Source: Gammaproteobacteria bacterium (GTDB taxonomy: Bacteria > Pseudomonadota > Gammaproteobacteria > Pseudomonadales > Azotimanducaceae). From it: a stretch of 64,000 nucleotides of DNA. Under the pieces are notes generated by a model. The model searched no databases. It had not been told where the DNA came from and saw only the letters and a list, made by a program, of their open reading frames with translations. The stretch covers positions 434,001 to 498,000 of the forward strand of contig VXNY01000024.1 of assembly GCA_009840305.1 (NCBI GenBank), given 5' to 3'. How positions within the stretch are numbered: position 1 is the first letter of the stretch; every line of letters starts with the position of its first letter. This document shows, piece after piece, positions 54,577 through 64,000 of the stretch. Position numbers and translations under genes: made by a program.

Positions 54577-54590
54577 TATAATCTGAATTG
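54577..54590 (+). promoter_or_regulatory. Promoter-like box shared with the third A-type gene
   Basis: TATAATCTGAATTG lies 42 bases upstream of the A1 start codon. An identical 14-base copy is at 62809-62822, also exactly 42 bases before its gene's ATG. TATAAT is a perfect -10 hexamer; no clear -35 is visible at either site. The sequence just before each ATG (GACGACCGTGCT / GGTCGCCGTCCT) is also similar. Confidence 0.5.
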
Positions 54591-54618
54591 ACGAAAGAAT
54601 TAGTCAGACGACCGTGCT

Positions 54619-56586
54619 ATGCAAAATTTTCTTACCCGCATTCTAGCCCTCTCGGTGGGTGTTGTGATGGGTATTGGAGTAGTCATTGGAGCATTAACTC
54701 TGCTACCTGAAGACGATCGTACTTCGGTTAAAAATCGGACGACTAGAATGACCGACGACAGCCTGGGAACACAAAACAGTAGCGTTTTTTCTTCCGGTAC
54801 TAAGGGCCGCGGTTCCAGCATTACCGCTTCCTCTAATGTCGAGGAGTTAGTATTTCCTGAGCAAGCCTTCGATCGTAAGGCGACTATCCTGTCTTGGATT
54901 GCGCCCCTTACCGACGATCAAATACTAAATTGGCTCGAACAAACCAACGATCCTTCCTGGAATGTTTCTACAGAAATTCTGAACGAATTTCAATCTACCT
55001 TGTTGCAAAAACTCACTATCACGGCACCGGAACGAGCTATTAAGCTTGTTTGGTCTATGGACGAGTACCGGAGGAACGCTTTAGCCTCAGTCGTGTTCCG
55101 GACTTGGGCTAGTATCGATTTAGACGAAGCAATCGCACAGGTAAAGGAATGGACCGAAGATGAAACCGTAAACTTTTTACCGACCATTTTGCGAGCGCGA
55201 GTAGACTTGTCCTTCGATCGTCAGCGGGAAATCGCAAGAGAGTTCGGAGATGAAAATTACGCGTTCTTCAATTACTTTTACAGCCTTATATCTGAAGGGA
55301 TCGAAAGACCAAAGGAGACTTGGCACGAAATTCTGAACATAGCAAACCGTGAGAATGTCCAAGGCACGGCCGGGCATGCTCTGAGCGAACTCGCGGTCGC
55401 ATGGGTTGAACGAGAGGGGATGGAAGTTCTTGATGAAATAGTGTCTTCTATTTCAGATTCAATTTCTATTCATACAACTTCTAGTTCACGCGCGACCGAA
55501 TACTTTTCTACCCTCACTCAAATACTTAACGCACTGTCTGAAGACAAACCTGAAGAAGTGTTTGATTTCGCGTTTAACAACCTTGGCGTTCGAGCTTACG
55601 ACATACTACCAATGAGTAATGTCATTTATAACTGGGCACGGCGGGATCCTAAAGCTGTTTTGGCAAAGGCGGCGACTTTGCCAGCTAGCGGATTTCGGCA
55701 CCAAATAGTTTCGAGAGCGATATGGCAATGGGCGGATGACAATCCTCGTCAAATTCTTAAACAAATAGACCTAGTCCCTAGAGAACATCAAACACAGGCA
55801 CGTCATAGCGCGATTCGAGCACTGACTCGTTCATCGCCCAACGAAGCAGCGAAGTTCGTCCTTCAAGAACAGGACCTCCAGGCACGTATATCGCTTGCGA
55901 ATGGCTTAGTCTACACTTGGGTACATCAAGACTCTGAAGCTACGAAAGATTGGGTGTTAGGCTTGCCAAATAGTGATCCTTTGCGCACCGCGCTTCTTCG
56001 CCCTCTCGCAATGTCACTTGTTCACATCGATCCCCGAGAGGCTTTTAGACTTGCACTTCAACAACCCATCGAAGAGAACCCTTCGTTTCCAAATTCCTCT
56101 ACTGGTTACGAATCTTCGATCATCAGTATGCTCGCATATCAGGACGTAGATCTTGCCATCGAGTTGTTACCTCAAGTTAGAGACCAGGGAAGATCCATAG
56201 CGTATAGTACCGTTGGAGTTTCATTAATTCAAAAGGGAGAGACGCGACAAGCGATAAACCTCGCAAATCAATTACCCAATGATGAACAGAAAAATTACTT
56301 TCGGAGCATGTCTTCGTCATGGGCGTGGCAAGACCCACAAGGATTACTTAAAGCATTCGACGAATTTCCCTCCGCGGAGATCCAATCACGAGTCGCCTTG
56401 TCGTTGAGCGTGATGAATGTCACTACAAATATATACACCGACGAAGAAATCGCTAGCGTCGAAAAGTACATGACTAAGGAATTTCGGGACAAGCTGCAAC
56501 AATTCCAAGAAAAATTCCAAGAAATAGACATGCGTAGCCCGTCTCCTGAAGATCGGAAGTTTCTCCAAGAGTTGTATTCGTGGTAG
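54619..56586 (+). CDS. Membrane-anchored helical-repeat protein, A type, copy 1
   Basis: This encodes 655 residues with an N-terminal signal anchor (RILALSVGVVMGIGVVIGALTLL) placing the C-terminal bulk in the periplasm. A ~40-residue Ser/Thr linker follows. A long alpha-solenoid then contains recurring pairs such as WASIDLDEAIAQVKEW, WARRDPKAVLAKAATLPASGF, WADDNPRQILKQI and WVHQDSEATKDWVLGLP, about 30-40 residues apart. Conserved A-type blocks are VFPEQAFDRKATILSWIAPLTDDQI, APERAIKLV, and WHEILNIANRENVQ with EVLDEIVSSIS. The C-terminus is acidic and ends LYSW. I recognise no named family. A possible scaffolding, protease-inhibitor or surface-binding role is open. Confidence 0.75.
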   Translation: MQNFLTRILALSVGVVMGIGVVIGALTLLPEDDRTSVKNRTTRMTDDSLGTQNSSVFSSGTKGRGSSITASSNVEELVFPEQAFDRKATILSWIAPLTDDQILNWLEQTNDPSWNVSTEILNEFQSTLLQKLTITAPERAIKLVWSMDEYRRNALASVVFRTWASIDLDEAIAQVKEWTEDETVNFLPTILRARVDLSFDRQREIAREFGDENYAFFNYFYSLISEGIERPKETWHEILNIANRENVQGTAGHALSELAVAWVEREGMEVLDEIVSSISDSISIHTTSSSRATEYFSTLTQILNALSEDKPEEVFDFAFNNLGVRAYDILPMSNVIYNWARRDPKAVLAKAATLPASGFRHQIVSRAIWQWADDNPRQILKQIDLVPREHQTQARHSAIRALTRSSPNEAAKFVLQEQDLQARISLANGLVYTWVHQDSEATKDWVLGLPNSDPLRTALLRPLAMSLVHIDPREAFRLALQQPIEENPSFPNSSTGYESSIISMLAYQDVDLAIELLPQVRDQGRSIAYSTVGVSLIQKGETRQAINLANQLPNDEQKNYFRSMSSSWAWQDPQGLLKAFDEFPSAEIQSRVALSLSVMNVTTNIYTDEEIASVEKYMTKEFRDKLQQFQEKFQEIDMRSPSPEDRKFLQELYSW

Positions 56587-56709
56587 TACGTAGTGGTCAG
56601 GGCCGCAATTGCGCCTGTTGCGAAGTAGGTTAGCTTACGCTCCAGCATGACATTTTCAATTCTGATGGAATTCTTTAAAGACAAAGGCAGCACTCCAAGC
56701 TAGAATCCC

Positions 56710-58614
56710 TTGAAAAAATCTTTAGGCATATTGTTACTCCTTCTTTCATCTGGATTTGTGCTAGGAGGTGGAGCTACCTATTTAGTACATCTTGCAACGT
56801 CAACCAACGACAACGATACCTCAATGGTTCCTGATGCAGTAGTGATTCCCCAAAAAACTGAGGAAGTTTCTACAACGAGAACTGAGGCAGATAAAACTCT
56901 AGACCCAATATCAATCAGCAACGGTCAGTCAGCCAGAATCAACGATCCCTCTTTAGAAAGGGACTCGTTTCAACGTAAATTAGCGATATATTCTTACGTG
57001 GCAGGTTTATCTGAGCAGCAAATTGCTAAGGAACTGGATCGCTCCGCGGATCGCGAGCTTGAACTTTCTCGCATCGTGCTCGTGGAGCTACAGACTGCAC
57101 TCATCGAAAGACTAGCTACACTAAATCCAACCTCCGCTATGAAGTTTGTCACAGAACAGAGAGACTTGGGCAGAGATTTTGTCGCACTCAACTCATGGGG
57201 GGTACAGCTGTCCGAGACTTTAGGAGCTACGACTACCTCAATGCCCTTCGTTGAAAGTGTGTTTAAAGAATGGGCGTTGAGTGACAGGATTGTTGCGGTC
57301 AGACACGCAAAGTCGCTCACGGCGGAAGTTAAGGACAAAGCACTTGCCGGAATTCTCGCTTCCCTTACCGGTGAACCATTGTCGAAGTATAGAAAAATCG
57401 CCAAAGAGTTGGGGGCTGAAGAACAAGGTCTCGATTTCTACGTGAGGTCATTCAGTTCAAAACGCGTTGCCGACGCGAAAGCTGTTTGGAACGAACTCGT
57501 TACTATCATCGAACCGCACGACACTAACCATTTGGTAGCACTGGAAACTGTCACGCAGCAGTGGTTCCAACAAGATGGAATACGTGTGTTCGACCAAGTA
57601 CGCTCGAAAGCTCTGAACGAAGATGTCAAGAGATTTCTAGTATCAGGTTTACTTCGCAGCACCGCAATGGAAAACCCTCATCAAGCCTTTCAATATGCAC
57701 TGAATATGCCGAGCCAAGGGGTGTATTCCCAACCATTGTCTAACGTCGTTTCTGTGTGGGCGGAAGCAGATCCGCAAGCAGCTTATCAAGCCGCCACCAG
57801 TATTGAACAAAGTGGACTACGAGAGAGTCTGCAGCGGCAAGTCGTATCAGTTTGGGCTGCAAACGAACCTTACTACTTCTTAGAAAACTCTGATAGTCTT
57901 CCACCACAAATGCTAAACCTTGGGAGTTCGAGTGCGCTTCAGGCTATCGCGGAGACTTCGCCACAAGAAGCGGCCGAAATCGCCCTTGAGCAAATAGAAG
58001 GAGGTTTTAGCGCGTTGAGCTATGTTCCAACTTACATACTCCAACACTGGATCGATCAGGATACCGAAGCAGCTATACATTGGGTACTCAACGGACCTGT
58101 GAGCGAGGAAGATCGGTACTTGTGGGTTAATGCGCTAGCGACCAGTTTAGTTAACACCGATCCTCGACGCGCATTTGATATCGCTCTTCAGGAACCCATT
58201 CCAGAACGCGTGGGGGGCATGTACATACCTGCGCTTGAAGCATACATTATTGGGCAAATAGTCAATGAAGACTTCGACCTTGCGGTCGAACTGCTACCGA
58301 AAGTGCGTGAAGGTGATTCAAAGTCGCAGGCCTATGTCTCGGTAGGGAACCGATACATCGTTAGAGGTCTGTCTTCGAAGGCATTAGAATTAGGGCTAAA
58401 ACTGACTACGAATGATCAAGCTCAATACTTTCAAAGTATCGCCTATACATGGGCTAGCATCGACGCTAGTGGGTTGGTTGAATCATTTGAGAATCTTCCT
58501 ACTGCAGAAATTCGCTCGAATATAGCACAAAATCTGACGAGTCAGTGGATGATTGATAATTTCACGGAGGCGCAACTAGAGGTTTTAGAGTCATATCTAA
58601 GTAAATCTGATTGA
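56710..58614 (+). CDS. Membrane-anchored helical-repeat protein, B type, copy 1
   Basis: This encodes 634 residues from TTG 56710 (CCC-TTG-AAA context). The N-terminal anchor ILLLLLSSGFVLGGGATYLVHLA is followed by a short linker and the same solenoid architecture as the A-type genes. B-type blocks include FQRKLAIYSYVAGLSEQQIA, VELQTALIERLATLNP, LGAEEQGLDFYVRSF, and WAEADPQAAYQAATSIEQSG with SPQEAAEIALEQ. The C-terminal segment AVELLPKVREGDSKSQAYVSVG is nearly identical to the A-type positions in pattern (LLPQVRDQG, LLPLVREG), so A and B share a common ancestor. Gap to the preceding A gene is 123 bases. Confidence 0.72.
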   Translation: MKKSLGILLLLLSSGFVLGGGATYLVHLATSTNDNDTSMVPDAVVIPQKTEEVSTTRTEADKTLDPISISNGQSARINDPSLERDSFQRKLAIYSYVAGLSEQQIAKELDRSADRELELSRIVLVELQTALIERLATLNPTSAMKFVTEQRDLGRDFVALNSWGVQLSETLGATTTSMPFVESVFKEWALSDRIVAVRHAKSLTAEVKDKALAGILASLTGEPLSKYRKIAKELGAEEQGLDFYVRSFSSKRVADAKAVWNELVTIIEPHDTNHLVALETVTQQWFQQDGIRVFDQVRSKALNEDVKRFLVSGLLRSTAMENPHQAFQYALNMPSQGVYSQPLSNVVSVWAEADPQAAYQAATSIEQSGLRESLQRQVVSVWAANEPYYFLENSDSLPPQMLNLGSSSALQAIAETSPQEAAEIALEQIEGGFSALSYVPTYILQHWIDQDTEAAIHWVLNGPVSEEDRYLWVNALATSLVNTDPRRAFDIALQEPIPERVGGMYIPALEAYIIGQIVNEDFDLAVELLPKVREGDSKSQAYVSVGNRYIVRGLSSKALELGLKLTTNDQAQYFQSIAYTWASIDASGLVESFENLPTAEIRSNIAQNLTSQWMIDNFTEAQLEVLESYLSKSD

Positions 58615-58724
58615 ATAGCCTTGGAGAGCCGACATTGAGTTTGCGCGAGAATGCTTTGCCTTTGAAGTATTCAACCTTTAATTCGTGATCTCGACATTAG
58701 TTTAGAGATCCCGTAGTAGGATTC

Positions 58725-60617
58725 ATGCGAACTCTCTTTTCCCGTGTTGTAGTCTTCGTAATCGGTGCGTTTATTGGCATTGGTGGTGTCGCAAGCGCTC
58801 TCTTTCTGCTGAAAGATGATCTGGCTAGCAAGCCTGTCGGACAAACTTCATCTACGCAAACATCAGAGTCAGTTACTCTCGCGAGTACTCATAGCGATCA
58901 CGGAGATAGTACAACATCTATTAACGGAGAAGTCCCCTCCCAGATAGATGACATAGTCTTTCCAAAACGTACGTTCGAACTCAAAGCAGGTATTGTTTTC
59001 TGGATAGCTACTCTCACTGACGACCAGATCGTAGATTTGCTCGGGCAATCCACGGAAGCGAGTTGGGATGTTTCGTATTCAAATCGAACGGAGTTGCAAA
59101 CTACACTCTTGCAAAAACTTTCGACAACAGCACCCGCTCGCGCTCTTGACTTTGTAGTAGAACGTGACCAATATCAACGCAATTCGATGATCAGGACGGT
59201 GTATGCTACCTGGGCTCGACACGACTTAAACCAAGCTATAGAACGCGCGAACGAGTTGGGTCATCCGGATTCCTTCTATGCACTCGATGCCATCTTAGAC
59301 GCGCGTACTGACTTACCGTTCGAAAGAAAACGAGATATAGCTATTGGTCTGCGAGATGAACGGCATGCGTTTTATAGTCACTTCACAAATCTAACTCAGG
59401 ATAAGATAGAAAATCCACGTGATACTTGGTACGAAATCGTCAATCTAGCAAGCAGTGAAAATGTCCAAGAAGAGGCGGAAGACGCTTTGAATCGTATTGC
59501 CATTGTTTGGTTCCAAGAAAGGGGCCTGAAGATCCTAGACGAAATAGTGTCTTCAATATCGGAGGGTTTCGATTACTATTTCGTACTCGACGGGCTATTT
59601 GACGACTTGTCTGCTGATCGATCGCAAGAAGTCTTTGACTACATGATGAGTAATCTGGGCGACCGAGCAATTGAGGTCATTCGGGAGACCCGTCTTTCCG
59701 AAAACTGGGCCCGAAGAGACCCTAAGAACATGCTAGCGAAAGTAAAGACCCTTCCAGCTAGCGACTTTCGGGAAGATCTAATTCGCTTGTCGATTCGAAG
59801 ATGGGCAGAAAATAGCCCACAACAAATTTTTGAACAACTAAAACAAGTTCCACCCGGTCTACGGGAATATGCTTGTGGTCACGCTATTGACGAATTTACG
59901 CAAAAATCGCCAACCGCAGCCGCACAATTTGTCCTGAAGATGTCCGATGAAGAAATGCAAAAACAACTTTCCACCAGGTTCATCCAAACGTGGAGCGAAG
60001 TAGACGCGGCTTCCGCCAAAGATTGGGTACTGAACCTACCTACGAACAGTCCAATCCATGCGTCAATGATTAACTCCCTAAAGTGGCGACTTGTCTCAAC
60101 CGACCCGAGGGGCGCGTTTGAACTCGCGCTTAAAGAGCCAATCGACTATGGTTTGGAAGATTCAATACTAGCCAGGATCGCAGACGACGATGTCCAACTT
60201 GCCCTTGAGTTGCTGCCGCTGGTTAGAGAAGGTAGAAAAGTGTCCGCGTACGCTCACATTGGCAGTTCTTTGGTCGAACAAGGTTTCTCTCAACATGCAC
60301 TCGATCTCGCGAACGAGTTGGATCACACCGCGCAGAAAGAATTCTATCAAGCTATCGCAATGTACTGGGTAGAGTATGACCCCAAAGGACTTCTGAAAGT
60401 TTTCGACGACTTTCCAACCGCGGTGAAGTCAAGAGTCGCGGTAGGCATAAAAATTGCGAATGGAGTTTTGAACTGTTATTCAGATGAAGAGATCTCACAC
60501 GTGGAAAAACACATTAGTGAACAGAACACTGAGTTGCTTAAACAAGTTCAAAAAATTGACATAGACAATCCAGCTGAAGAAGAAATAGAAGTACTTCAGC
60601 AGTTGCACTTATGGTAG
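58725..60617 (+). CDS. Membrane-anchored helical-repeat protein, A type, copy 2
   Basis: This encodes 630 residues from ATG 58725. The anchor VVVFVIGAFIGIGGVASALFLLK is followed by a linker and the solenoid. It shares long stretches with copy 1: FELKAGIVFWIATLTDDQI, ELQTTLLQKLSTTAPARAL, ENPRDTWYEIVNLASSENVQ, WARRDPKNMLAKVKTLPASDF and RRWAENSPQQIFEQLKQVP. It ends LQQLHLW. Unlike copies 1 and 3 it lacks the TATAATCTGAATTG box. It follows the B1 gene with a 110-base gap, so it may be transcribed from further upstream. Confidence 0.75.
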   Translation: MRTLFSRVVVFVIGAFIGIGGVASALFLLKDDLASKPVGQTSSTQTSESVTLASTHSDHGDSTTSINGEVPSQIDDIVFPKRTFELKAGIVFWIATLTDDQIVDLLGQSTEASWDVSYSNRTELQTTLLQKLSTTAPARALDFVVERDQYQRNSMIRTVYATWARHDLNQAIERANELGHPDSFYALDAILDARTDLPFERKRDIAIGLRDERHAFYSHFTNLTQDKIENPRDTWYEIVNLASSENVQEEAEDALNRIAIVWFQERGLKILDEIVSSISEGFDYYFVLDGLFDDLSADRSQEVFDYMMSNLGDRAIEVIRETRLSENWARRDPKNMLAKVKTLPASDFREDLIRLSIRRWAENSPQQIFEQLKQVPPGLREYACGHAIDEFTQKSPTAAAQFVLKMSDEEMQKQLSTRFIQTWSEVDAASAKDWVLNLPTNSPIHASMINSLKWRLVSTDPRGAFELALKEPIDYGLEDSILARIADDDVQLALELLPLVREGRKVSAYAHIGSSLVEQGFSQHALDLANELDHTAQKEFYQAIAMYWVEYDPKGLLKVFDDFPTAVKSRVAVGIKIANGVLNCYSDEEISHVEKHISEQNTELLKQVQKIDIDNPAEEEIEVLQQLHLW

Positions 60618-60734
60618 CTTACGTCTCGTTTTGCAACCTTTATTCGAACCTAGACGAAGCGATTTTCTGAGTCGGATCGAATAGCTGTGTCCCCGCTCAA
60701 GAACCGTCGTCACTTAGATTTAAACTAATATCCA

Positions 60735-62624
60735 TTGAAAAGATCGCTAACAATTTTCGCAATCCTTCTATTCTCTGGGATAGCGTTAGGTGGTTTCGGA
60801 ATGTACTTGGTGTATGTCTTCGTTTGGGCAAACGAAACCACAGAGATTGCCCCATCCGGTGTGAACCCCTATTCAAATAAAGACTCCTCGAATGTCGGTT
60901 TTCGATTAAACCACGCATCCCTTCTCAATCTACACCACAACTCTACGTCCTCCACTCCACTTGAAGACCCAAGTTTGTATGAAAACTCATTTAAACTTCG
61001 GCTTGCCGTGTATTCATTTGTTGCTGGTTTATCTGCACAAGAACTCATTACTGAGTTGCATTCCATTTCGAGTGAAACAAAGGAACATTCGCGTCACGTT
61101 AGAGAGGAACTTCAAAAAGCCCTTATAGAAAGACTTGCGACAGTGAATCCGAAAGCGGCAACCGCATATGTGGTCGATCAATTTGAACCTATTTCGAATC
61201 GATCGGAATTTGTGCGCTTGCAACGCTATTTGAATGTAGAACAAGACACTTCTAGGCCTATGGTCCAAACCGTGTTCATGGATTGGGCACTGACTGATCT
61301 TCAAAGTGCCATCGACATAGCAAAAAAACTAGCCGTAGACTTCAAGAATAACGCACTTATCGGCATATTGGCGGCACTGCGTGGCGAAACGCTCAACACT
61401 TTTCGACAAGTAGCTAAGGAACTTGGGGATGAGGAACAAGGGACAAACGCATACATAATGTCGTTCGCAACGAATCGCGTCAACGACCCTGGTACGGCAT
61501 GGCATGAAGTCATCGAACTTGTCAAACCAAATGACACTAGCCATGCACGAGCATTACTGAACATCGCGAAGCAATGGTATGAACACATTGGATTTGGTGT
61601 GCTCGATAACGTAAACATCAGCAACTTAGAAAAGAACGTTAAATCCGATTTAATCGTGCAGTTGCTAGAGTACGCGGTTGCGATTGAACCCGATCAAGCG
61701 TTTCAATATGCGCTGACAGTGCCGAGCGAAAACAGGGACTCGTCGGCGATGTCCCGGGTAGCTAAAACATGGGCGATGTCTGATCCGGCAGCCGCCTACC
61801 AAGCTGTTAGTAGTATCGAAAAAAGTGGTGATCGAGAGTACTTCCAACATCGCGTAGTCAGTATATGGGCGCTAAACGAACCACGGGAAGTCATGGACAA
61901 TGTGGAAAGTTTTCCACCGAATATTAGAGAATATGTAATTGATGATGCGATTAGAGGTATCGCACGAGTATCCCCCGAAGAAGCCGCGGAACTTGCTGTT
62001 AAACACGGAACTGGCGGGCCGAACGACTTCTTACCATCCGGTGTTATCGGTATATGGATGGAGATAGACTTTGAAGCGGCCTTAAATTGGGTATACAGTG
62101 CCCCTCTCGCTGAGGGTAAAAGGTACACATGGGTAAGTGCAATTACAAGCAACTTGGTCGAATCGGATCCACGCCGCGCCTTTGACTTGGCTGTTAATCA
62201 AGAAAGTCCAGATATCAATTTCCTGGGGATGGAAATGTATGAAACGGGATTAGAAGCCGAAGTGATCTGGTCGATCTGTGACCAAGACCTTGAGCTTGCT
62301 GTCGAACTACTACCAAAAGTACGGGAAGGAAAGACGAAAACAAGTGCTTATAGAGCAATCGGACAGAGGTACATCGAGCTCGGTGACTCGAAGAAAGCAT
62401 TTAACCTAGGTTTACAACTGACCGAGCACAGTCAGGCTGAGTATTTTGATTCAATTTCTTGGACTTGGGGAAACATTGATCCGGCCGGACTAATAGAGTC
62501 AATTGAAGACTTTCCTACTAAAGAGATTCGTGCCAATGTCGCCTCAAGTCTGGTAAAAGGATCGAGCCGAAAAAATTTTTCGGACGCGCAACTAGAAATA
62601 CTTAATCAATATGTTGACGATTGA
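60735..62624 (+). CDS. Membrane-anchored helical-repeat protein, B type, copy 2
   Basis: This encodes 629 residues from TTG 60735, as in B copy 1. The anchor FAILLFSGIALGGFGMYLVYVFV resembles B1 (LGG-G-G-YLV). Blocks matching B1 include FKLRLAVYSFVAGLSAQELI, EELQKALIERLATVNP, LGDEEQGTNAYIMSFATNRV, and DPAAAYQAVSSIEKSGDRE with SPEEAAELAVKH. The C-terminus is AQLEILNQYVDD (B1: AQLEVLESYLSKSD). It follows A2 with a 117-base gap and precedes the A3 gene by 226 bases. Confidence 0.72.
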   Translation: MKRSLTIFAILLFSGIALGGFGMYLVYVFVWANETTEIAPSGVNPYSNKDSSNVGFRLNHASLLNLHHNSTSSTPLEDPSLYENSFKLRLAVYSFVAGLSAQELITELHSISSETKEHSRHVREELQKALIERLATVNPKAATAYVVDQFEPISNRSEFVRLQRYLNVEQDTSRPMVQTVFMDWALTDLQSAIDIAKKLAVDFKNNALIGILAALRGETLNTFRQVAKELGDEEQGTNAYIMSFATNRVNDPGTAWHEVIELVKPNDTSHARALLNIAKQWYEHIGFGVLDNVNISNLEKNVKSDLIVQLLEYAVAIEPDQAFQYALTVPSENRDSSAMSRVAKTWAMSDPAAAYQAVSSIEKSGDREYFQHRVVSIWALNEPREVMDNVESFPPNIREYVIDDAIRGIARVSPEEAAELAVKHGTGGPNDFLPSGVIGIWMEIDFEAALNWVYSAPLAEGKRYTWVSAITSNLVESDPRRAFDLAVNQESPDINFLGMEMYETGLEAEVIWSICDQDLELAVELLPKVREGKTKTSAYRAIGQRYIELGDSKKAFNLGLQLTEHSQAEYFDSISWTWGNIDPAGLIESIEDFPTKEIRANVASSLVKGSSRKNFSDAQLEILNQYVDD

Positions 62625-62808
62625 GGTTAGACACACTGTAGGGTTAGTAATCTCTCTAAACACCTATTTTTTACATCATCTCGTTCTCTGCTAGAACGCA
62701 TTCATTCGCAAGCGTGGTACCTTCAAGGCTTTCGAGATGTGTTCATGTAACAGGTTCAACAGTGCTTTTGTCGCCGTTGATTAGAAGTAGCGTCCAAAAA
62801 ATCAGTCA

Positions 62809-62822
62809 TATAATCTGAATTG
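62809..62822 (+). promoter_or_regulatory. Promoter-like box, second copy
   Basis: TATAATCTGAATTG is identical to the box at 54577-54590 and again exactly 42 bases before the gene start. The matching spacing suggests that the gene's 5' region was duplicated together with its promoter. Confidence 0.5.
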
Positions 62823-62850
62823 TCACAAACGCTTCTCTGGTCGCCGTCCT

Positions 62851-64000
62851 ATGAACAATCTCTTAGCACGAATCCTTCTCCTAGTTGTCGGAGTTTTAAT
62901 AGGGATCGATGGCTTCATCGGAATCAAGTTTCTACTTCACGACGACAACACGACTATTGCCCCAGAACCGACTGAAGTAGCGCGAGTAAAAGAGATACGG
63001 TCCACCACAAAGGAAACAGGTGGTATTGATACGGTTCCTTCCAGAGTCGAACATTTAGTCTTTCCTGACCGCACCTTTGAGCGCAAGGCGGCCATTGTAT
63101 CGTGGGTCGCAACTCTCACCGCCGATGAAGTGGTGAACTGGCTCGAACAATCTACTGAACCATCTTGGCAAGTTTCGCAGGTTAATCGCACGGAATTGCA
63201 AACGACCCTGTTGCAAAAACTTTCGACAACAGCGCCAGACCGCGCGATTGACTTCGCGTTAGCCCGAGAAGAGCAACGACAAGTCTACTCAATGTCTAAC
63301 ACGGTGTTTCAAGTCTGGGCTAATACAGATATCGACGGAGCAGTTGCCCGCGTTAAGGAGTTGAACGAACAAGCGAAGAATTACCATTTGGGTACGCTCT
63401 TAAGGGCGCGAGATGACTTTCCTTTAACAAGAATGCGAGAAATCGCGATCGTGCTCGGGGATGAGAGTGTAGCATTCGCTGTTCACTTCCAGAACCTAGC
63501 GAAGGGCGATATTGAAAGCCCACGAGACACATGGCACGAAATAGTCAACTTGGCAAACATTGAAAGTGTCCAATCCGCTACTGGATTTGCATTGAGCAAT
63601 GTTGCTGCCGCGTGGGTCGAGGATAGTGGCTTGGATGTCCTCGACGAAATCGTGAGTTCAATATCAAGCATTTCTGAGTACTCTAACGTACTACCCAGGA
63701 TTCTTCGTGGAGTGGCCACGAGTCATCCTGAAGAGGTTTTTGATTATGTAATGAGCAATCTAGGGGACCAAGCGACTGAGATTATTCAAAACAGCAACAT
63801 CGGTTACTTCTGGGCTCAGAAGGACCCGCAGGGTATGCTTGCCAAGGCAGAAGCTCTTCCCGCAAGCAGATTTAGAGGAACCTTTATACGAAATGCCGTG
63901 TGGCGGTGGGCAGAAAGTAACCCCCGCCAACTTCTTGAAAAAATAGAAATCATACCTCCCGGCGAACGCGAATTCGCCAGTTCGCGTGCCATTGAAACTT
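62851..64000 (+). CDS. Membrane-anchored helical-repeat protein, A type, copy 3 (3' end outside window)
   Basis: This is the first 383 codons from ATG 62851, and the frame is open to the window end. The anchor RILLLVVGVLIGIDGFIGIKFLL is followed by a ~35-residue linker and the solenoid. Blocks shared with copies 1 and 2 are FERKAAIVSWVATLTADEVV, ELQTTLLQKLSTTAPDRAI, DIESPRDTWHEIVNLANIES, LDVLDEIVSSISS, and WAQKDPQGMLAKAEALPAS. It is intact as far as seen. The array may continue beyond the window. Confidence 0.75.
   Translation, partial: MNNLLARILLLVVGVLIGIDGFIGIKFLLHDDNTTIAPEPTEVARVKEIRSTTKETGGIDTVPSRVEHLVFPDRTFERKAAIVSWVATLTADEVVNWLEQSTEPSWQVSQVNRTELQTTLLQKLSTTAPDRAIDFALAREEQRQVYSMSNTVFQVWANTDIDGAVARVKELNEQAKNYHLGTLLRARDDFPLTRMREIAIVLGDESVAFAVHFQNLAKGDIESPRDTWHEIVNLANIESVQSATGFALSNVAAAWVEDSGLDVLDEIVSSISSISEYSNVLPRILRGVATSHPEEVFDYVMSNLGDQATEIIQNSNIGYFWAQKDPQGMLAKAEALPASRFRGTFIRNAVWRWAESNPRQLLEKIEIIPPGEREFASSRAIET

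Follow-up and report, generated by a model that had tools for sequence, protein, structure and literature searches.

The window, meaning the whole stretch of 64,000 nucleotides analysed here (C27:434001-498000, within a genome of 2.62 Mb in 35 contigs), closes with five large paralogous open reading frames (ORFs), A1, B1, A2, B2 and A3, all of which were confirmed in an ORF check at the positions given by a preliminary description of the same DNA. A3 is cut by the window end; in the genome the gene is complete, encodes 633 amino acids and ends 752 bases further on. Identity to A1 amounts to 28 and 26% for the B proteins of the window and to 41 and 47% for its other two A proteins, with A3 compared in its cut form. 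The sequence blocks that had been cited for the two types are present, except that the WHEI of the A type reads WYEI in the second A gene. The proposal that a TTG start distinguishes the B genes has to be abandoned, since the third B gene of the array (C27:498882) and both B genes on C17 start with ATG in the ORF calls, and the family as a whole uses ATG, TTG and GTG in 37, 23 and 14 cases, respectively. The array does run off the window, and extension of the contig reveals thirteen consecutive same-strand paralogues spanning C27:488619 to 514541, of which the five window genes are the opening ones. The strict A-B alternation described for these five holds for array genes 1-10, whereas genes 11-13 fit no clean order.

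The family reaches far beyond this array, as 74 distinct members instead of five were found genome-wide by an iterated profile search over the ORFs of 23 stretches, three of 77 ORFs having been discarded as truncated duplicates where a locus ended. Together the members occupy 136,080 bases, or 5.19% of the genomic DNA, and they are distributed over 27 clusters, one of thirteen genes, one of ten, four of four, fourteen of two and seven single genes; 69 of the 74 are at least 564 amino acids long. Recent homogenisation of the copies was considered and rejected, as an identity of 85% between paralogues occurs once, the next closest pair stands at 61% and the median is 21%. The two closest paralogues are the second gene of a pair (C34:261430) and an unpaired copy elsewhere (C34:418437), which indicates that single genes also move alone. 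A mobile-element origin was likewise rejected, since A1 as the sole query, a search that reaches close relatives, found nothing in viral contigs or plasmids, and the guanine-cytosine (GC) content of the family is like that of the window (0.462 versus 0.465).

The usual copied unit in this family is the gene pair. When neighbours are paired in transcription order, with the 13-gene array read as 1-2, 3-4, 5-6, 7-8, 9-10 and 12-13, 66 of the 74 members fall into 33 adjacent pairs, and in a careful tree the first and second genes make up separate clades in most subfamilies. In the subfamily of the window, nine A and nine B genes genome-wide form two separate groups, as had been foreseen, with clade supports of 100/96 for A and 96/95 for B. 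The inner seven of the nine pairs display the same branching order in both groups, the A genes as ((C34_140213, C34_406005), ((492725, 496851), (488619, (C17_82775, C17_87232)))) and the B partners correspondingly, while the outer two pairs have weaker support and differ in their A and B placements. The mirror-tree correlation over all 33 pairs is r = 0.944, with a maximum of 0.328 in 2000 shuffles, and within the window subfamily and the C34/C33 subfamily, each of nine pairs, it amounts to 0.986 and 0.981, respectively, values that none of 5000 permutations reached in either case.

A similar arrangement is present in a distant species of the same genus (G007), where 69 ORFs were found and 56 were kept for the tree after exclusion of those below 480 amino acids; fragments at several match sites were not included, and the pairs number 19, or 20 when one from an odd-sized cluster is added. 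The mirror-tree correlation there is 0.953 over 19 pairs (maximum of 1000 shuffles 0.530), and for three of the 19 pairs the nearest genes in the window genome likewise make up one pair, with the order preserved. In FastTree trees of the two species, the nearest non-partner has the same pair position for 97 of 106 genes, where random order flips yield about 53, and both members have a closer relative among the same-position genes elsewhere than in their own partner in 32 of 33 pairs of the window genome and in 14 of 20 pairs of the second species. The mirrored trees in most subfamilies imply that the pair is the unit of duplication in most, not all, of the family, and the repeated duplication of a two-gene unit suggested by the preliminary description is thus strongly supported by the 33 pairs, the second species and the agreement in pair position.

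The pairing itself seems to have arisen several times. A single ancient A/B split was rejected in an approximately unbiased (AU) test, in which a single first-gene clade costs 522.6 log-likelihood units (p-AU 2.2e-5) for 30 first versus 30 second genes assigned by gene order, three of the 33 pairs being excluded after tree inspection. At eight two-gene loci of another genus, the pairs split into first and second genes on a branch of their own and mirror each other (6 + 6 genes), and two more pairs are partner-sisters, in a quick tree rooted on the single-copy relatives G343 and G516 with matches below 440 amino acids excluded. The rejected single split and this independent branch together suggest that pairs originated on several occasions, unless an older split has been blurred by gene conversion between partners, a process that could mimic the rejection. 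The A/B distinction is, judged from the trees, a property of the window subfamily and does not reflect a single old division running through the whole family. The loci of the other genus also differ in the make-up of their pairs: by eye, the first gene is anchored at L091, L093 and L098 and the second starts with a signal-peptide-like segment at L090, L091, L093, L095 and L098, the two genes overlapping.

The common architecture proposed for the five proteins, an anchor, a linker and a long helical repeat, is matched by the structure models of A1 and B1 (Table 1, with confidence as predicted local distance difference test, pLDDT). Both consist of a membrane helix, about 45-50 disordered residues and about 30 helices without a further domain; the A1 model contains helices alone and the B1 model only two isolated strand residues besides. 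Across the family the repeat period is 31-32 residues, as judged by motif lag and hydrophobic autocorrelation, with 4.93 repeat motif matches per protein versus 0.78 in shuffled sequences. Hydrophobic N-terminal helices are present in 71 of the 74 members, and 43 of the 74 helices carry a GxxxG motif, which favours the packing of helices, where 17.0 would be expected from shuffled helices; in A1 the corresponding Gly14 and Gly18 are nearly invariant (at least 90%) among 27 sequences, the structure alignments including some proteins truncated by the end of a locus. As a rule, positively charged residues stay on the inner side of the membrane; in this family the residues before the helix contain on average 2.9 Lys and Arg and 0.7 Asp and Glu, the next 15 residues 1.0 and 2.2. 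A few members have a signal-peptide-like start in place of the anchor, among them the two members of array pair 9-10 and, as second genes, C34:257277 and C34:261430, signal peptides being judged visually throughout. The charge bias and these N-termini support the periplasmic placement suggested earlier, and the solenoid is predicted from sequence to be exported to the periplasm. A promoter and terminator scan gave fewer matches than in shuffles and was uninformative.

Table 1 Features of the window and redoxin-like genes outside it. Positions are those of the window unless a locus is given.
Feature	Position	Strand	Basis
A1, anchored alpha-solenoid, first gene of pair 1, 655 amino acids	54619..56586	+	ORF; model pLDDT 84.9
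A1 N-terminal membrane helix, residues 2-27, GxxxG	54622..54699	+	model (modest confidence), hydropathy
A1 disordered linker, residues 28-72	54700..54834	+	pLDDT <50 at residues 24-71
A1 alpha-solenoid, residues 83-655, ~16 two-helix repeats (read from helix list)	54865..56583	+	model
B1, anchored alpha-solenoid, second gene of pair 1, 634 amino acids	56710..58614	+	ORF; model pLDDT 79.7
B1 N-terminal membrane helix, residues 4-31	56719..56802	+	low-confidence model (pLDDT <50 at residues 1-74), hydropathy
A2, first gene of pair 2, 630 amino acids	58725..60617	+	ORF; A clade in tree
B2, second gene of pair 2, 629 amino acids	60735..62624	+	ORF; B clade in tree
A3, first gene of pair 3, cut at window end	62851..64000	+	ORF; partner gene next, outside window
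Redoxin-like gene, outside window	L036:651-2366		
Redoxin-like gene, outside window	L039:11511-13151		
Redoxin-like gene, outside window	L040:5795-7582		
Redoxin-like gene, outside window	L035:1253-3130		

Four of the five window genes are under purifying selection. The ratio of nonsynonymous to synonymous substitution rates (dN/dS) lies between 0.24 and 0.41 for the orthologues of A1, B1, A2 and B2 on three contigs of related metagenome-assembled genomes (MAGs; 24 comparisons), which also retain the A-B-A-B gene order, and no sign of whole-gene positive selection was seen in these four genes against the three orthologue sets; they are coding genes under constraint. The three A1 orthologues are 76-79% identical to the window gene with dN/dS values of 0.32-0.41, and over four orthologues the A1 linker (residues 28-75) varies at 83% of its positions versus 30% in residues 76-655. 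Within the solenoid, scaffold positions occupied by Trp, Ala, Leu and Pro are conserved across the 74 members; of 528 solenoid positions, 44 fall below 1.5 bits of entropy and 219 are at 3.2 bits or above, and variation among orthologues affects 36% of the latter versus 7% of the former.

The family is unevenly distributed. Among 17 other species of the genus the counts are bimodal, with 40 to at least 84 matches in nine and 0 to 6 in eight; two of the eight low-count genomes are less than 80% complete, a match may be a fragment, and the counts of G008 and G013 are lower bounds. With the own genome included, a match was found in 47 of 150 genomes and 18 of 37 genera at the family level, and in evenly drawn sets in 4 of 369 genomes of the class and 5 of 398 of the phylum, all of these being lower bounds as 3 to 21 candidates were scored per genome in the wide searches. 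The distant relatives that were inspected are single anchored solenoids, the exception being G635, which has a long and dissimilar ORF. In a different gammaproteobacterial family, three genera each hold a single, shorter anchored solenoid of 423-460 amino acids (L065, L105 and L106), which exceeds the curated cut-off of no Pfam or NCBIfam model and possibly represents the single-copy ancestor type. The named relatives are the MAGs Gammaproteobacteria bacterium SB0661_bin_12, SB0677_bin_6 and SB0666_bin_18 and OMG group bacterium Plut_88873. In one report, sponge ribosomal RNA reads are closest to Nitrospira sp. SB0677 (PMC12203066), which, through the shared series name, would point to a sponge origin.

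The surroundings of the solenoid clusters were surveyed in 83 of 137 flanking ORFs, which matched 122 Pfam families, the 25 commonest of which were examined. AhpC-TSA is the most frequent of them, in five of the 83 ORFs, and the AAA_14 and DUF4143 domains occur in four each. Redoxin- or thioredoxin-like proteins of 547-626 amino acids with a C-terminal thioredoxin fold are encoded at most 300 base pairs from four of the 27 solenoid clusters (Table 1). The redoxin-like family is itself expanded in the genome, with 28 matched stretches, so the adjacency may be partly a matter of chance. At C24:146170-151237 of the window genome, three redoxin-like matches lie in ORFs of 692-694 amino acids at a spacing of about 2,350 bases, two of them with equal score, which suggests a recent tandem triplication.

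The pairing, the mirrored trees, the anchors, the variable positions and the uneven expansion are most simply accounted for by a repertoire of heteromeric binders. In this model, each neighbouring pair would encode two related proteins that lie next to each other in the envelope and form one complex. Either protein would begin with one membrane helix, replaced in some members by an apparent cleavable signal peptide, and continue with a flexible linker and an alpha-solenoid reaching into the periplasm. The A and B solenoids would pair with each other, as would the GxxxG membrane helices where both partners are anchored, to give a functional A-B heteromer, and a conserved scaffold with freely varying helix positions would provide each pair with its own binding surface. 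Repeated block copying of the unit could then have produced the approximately 33 pairs, each with a client of its own; the likeliest clients would be proteins or peptides of the envelope or of host origin that are encountered in a sponge. We assign a probability of roughly one half to an envelope-tethered heteromeric solenoid per pair that binds its own client; the A-B partnership proposed earlier is made likely by the pairing evidence, while physical contact between A and B, client binding and relevance to a host are steps that we infer. A more far-reaching version, a paired-receptor repertoire in which dozens of orthogonal envelope-tethered heteromeric solenoids each recognise a different host or neighbour molecule, having arisen by repeated conversion of a single, homomeric anchored solenoid into a two-gene heteromer and subsequent block duplication, appears rather unlikely; such a repertoire would have been overlooked because the Pfam and NCBIfam models tried do not describe the family.

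Several observations weigh against the heteromeric binder model, and some of them would suit its main rival, in which the genes are tandem paralogues without partnership in a repeat-rich family that spreads through tandem duplication of blocks, neighbours are kept together by linkage alone and each protein is a lone envelope scaffold or binder. Mirrored trees are also expected from linked copying without contact. Eight of the 74 members in the window genome and 16 of the 56 longer genes of the second species are unpaired, as are the genes at L094, L099 and L100 of the other genus, where moreover the L092 pair has both members anchored. Six of the 20 pairs in the second species are recent local pairs of partner-sisters, by which the mirror correlation there is inflated. 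In subfamily ii (four pairs, r = 0.982) the one in 24 permutations that does as well is the attainable minimum, and in subfamily iii, also of four pairs, the mirror signal is absent (r = 0.207, 10 of 24 permutations as high). High entropy is normal for any family with a median identity of 21% and therefore permits, without proving, a diversified surface; the membrane topology is a prediction from charge bias; and none of the 25 most frequent of the 122 flanking families is conspicuous as an accessory to the clusters. On the other hand, lone scaffolds kept together by linkage would not readily explain that scattered clusters often hold two, four or ten genes, that the first-second order is so widely kept and nearly all members retain their length, or that another genus has overlapping gene pairs in which one product is anchored and the other apparently secreted. 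This rival is accordingly regarded as possible, on the unlikely side.

Two further explanations were weighed. Eukaryote-like solenoids are thought to be used by sponge symbionts against phagocytosis, and the family could consist of host-facing effectors that are released or displayed, with the pairing incidental or required for export. The very uneven copy number within one genus would be consistent with this, as would the origin of three of the four named relatives in the SB06xx bin series, given that sponge reads map to Nitrospira of the SB0677 series (PMC12203066), and the enrichment of Pfam-detected ankyrin, leucine-rich, TPR and HEAT repeat proteins in sponge-associated MAGs, as stated by Robbins et al. 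(PMC8163846). Against it, the proteins would, judging by the anchor, stay in the inner membrane, a secretion family is absent from the 25 commonest flanking families examined, and at an E-value of 0.01 no ankyrin or leucine-rich repeat (LRR) match, and TPR, HEAT or PPR matches in one or two of the 74 members each, were obtained, so that an effector role seems improbable. A two-component conflict module, either toxin-immunity or phage defence, might be suspected from the two-gene unit and its many divergent copies; however, the single weak PADLOC match among the four proteins tried was to DpdH (E-value 0.0023), both member models are pure solenoids, the A1 search of viral contigs and plasmids was negative at the level of close relatives, three related MAGs retain the A-B-A-B order, with purifying selection on the genes, and the GC content is like that of the window, all of which makes this explanation very unlikely indeed. 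Within a fairly small genome of 2.6 Mb, this marine gammaproteobacterium devotes 5.2% of its DNA to one unnamed family that Pfam-based surveys of repeat proteins would miss nearly entirely. An apparently repeated conversion from one gene to two, with dozens of cognate and non-cognate pairs per cell, amounts to a natural experiment in which mirrored pairs allow tests of how binding specificity evolves between paralogues. Should host molecules prove to be the clients, the family would represent a previously unknown way for symbiont and sponge to interact.

The statement that the proteins fall into no named family is upheld by the searches. Nothing credible was found in Pfam, NCBIfam, PADLOC, PHROGs or PDB sequence searches with window proteins (five for Pfam, four each for NCBIfam, PADLOC and PHROGs, one for the PDB), and no repeat families were present among the weak Pfam matches of the five window proteins. 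At an E-value of 0.01, the Pfam matches among the 74 members comprise TPR_19 and HEAT_2 in two members each and PPR in one, the best at 1.6e-4, and no ankyrin, LRR or WD40. In the PDB, a profile of the family hits designed PPR chains (6een, E-value 1.5e-23, eight stretches, best at profile positions 477-533), whereas the match to the natural PPR10 is weak (9e-4), as designed periodic repeats sum many short matches. Foldseek returned generic solenoids alone, with TM-scores of up to 0.33 for A1 and 0.41 for B1 among the 50 rows listed. Among the papers listed in literature searches, none was a prior description of the solenoid family.

The family belongs among the alpha-solenoids, and like the TPR, PPR and HEAT proteins its members show stacked two-helix repeats that form a superhelix, as seen from the models and the repeat period, although their helices are unequal in length, carry a W..DP..A-like signature and are not fitted by the Pfam repeat models. 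LapB, a single-copy housekeeping protein with one N-terminal membrane helix, a TPR-like cytoplasmic solenoid and a cysteine-rich rubredoxin domain, gives a weak profile match (LapB/YciM, 9up5, E-value 6.1e-4) and shares the order of one membrane helix followed by a TPR-like solenoid, yet the family has a cysteine content of 0.14% over 74 proteins and the opposite predicted topology, and the A1 and B1 models are without a rubredoxin domain. The SusC/SusD systems of Bacteroidetes, which join a TonB-dependent barrel and a lipoprotein, unrelated partners of which one is a helical-repeat protein, likewise come as a two-gene unit of the envelope that stays together and exists in many divergent copies, whereas here both partners derive from one solenoid family; a TonB-receptor family is absent from the 25 commonest flanking families, and CarboxypepD_reg, which can accompany TonB receptors, occurs in two of the 83 flanking ORFs. 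Finally, the eukaryote-like repeat proteins of sponge symbionts (PMC8163846) resemble the present family in their expanded solenoid repeats, and its named relatives belong to sponge-linked bin series, but the proteins described here are anchored, occur in co-copied pairs and are nearly all missed by Pfam.

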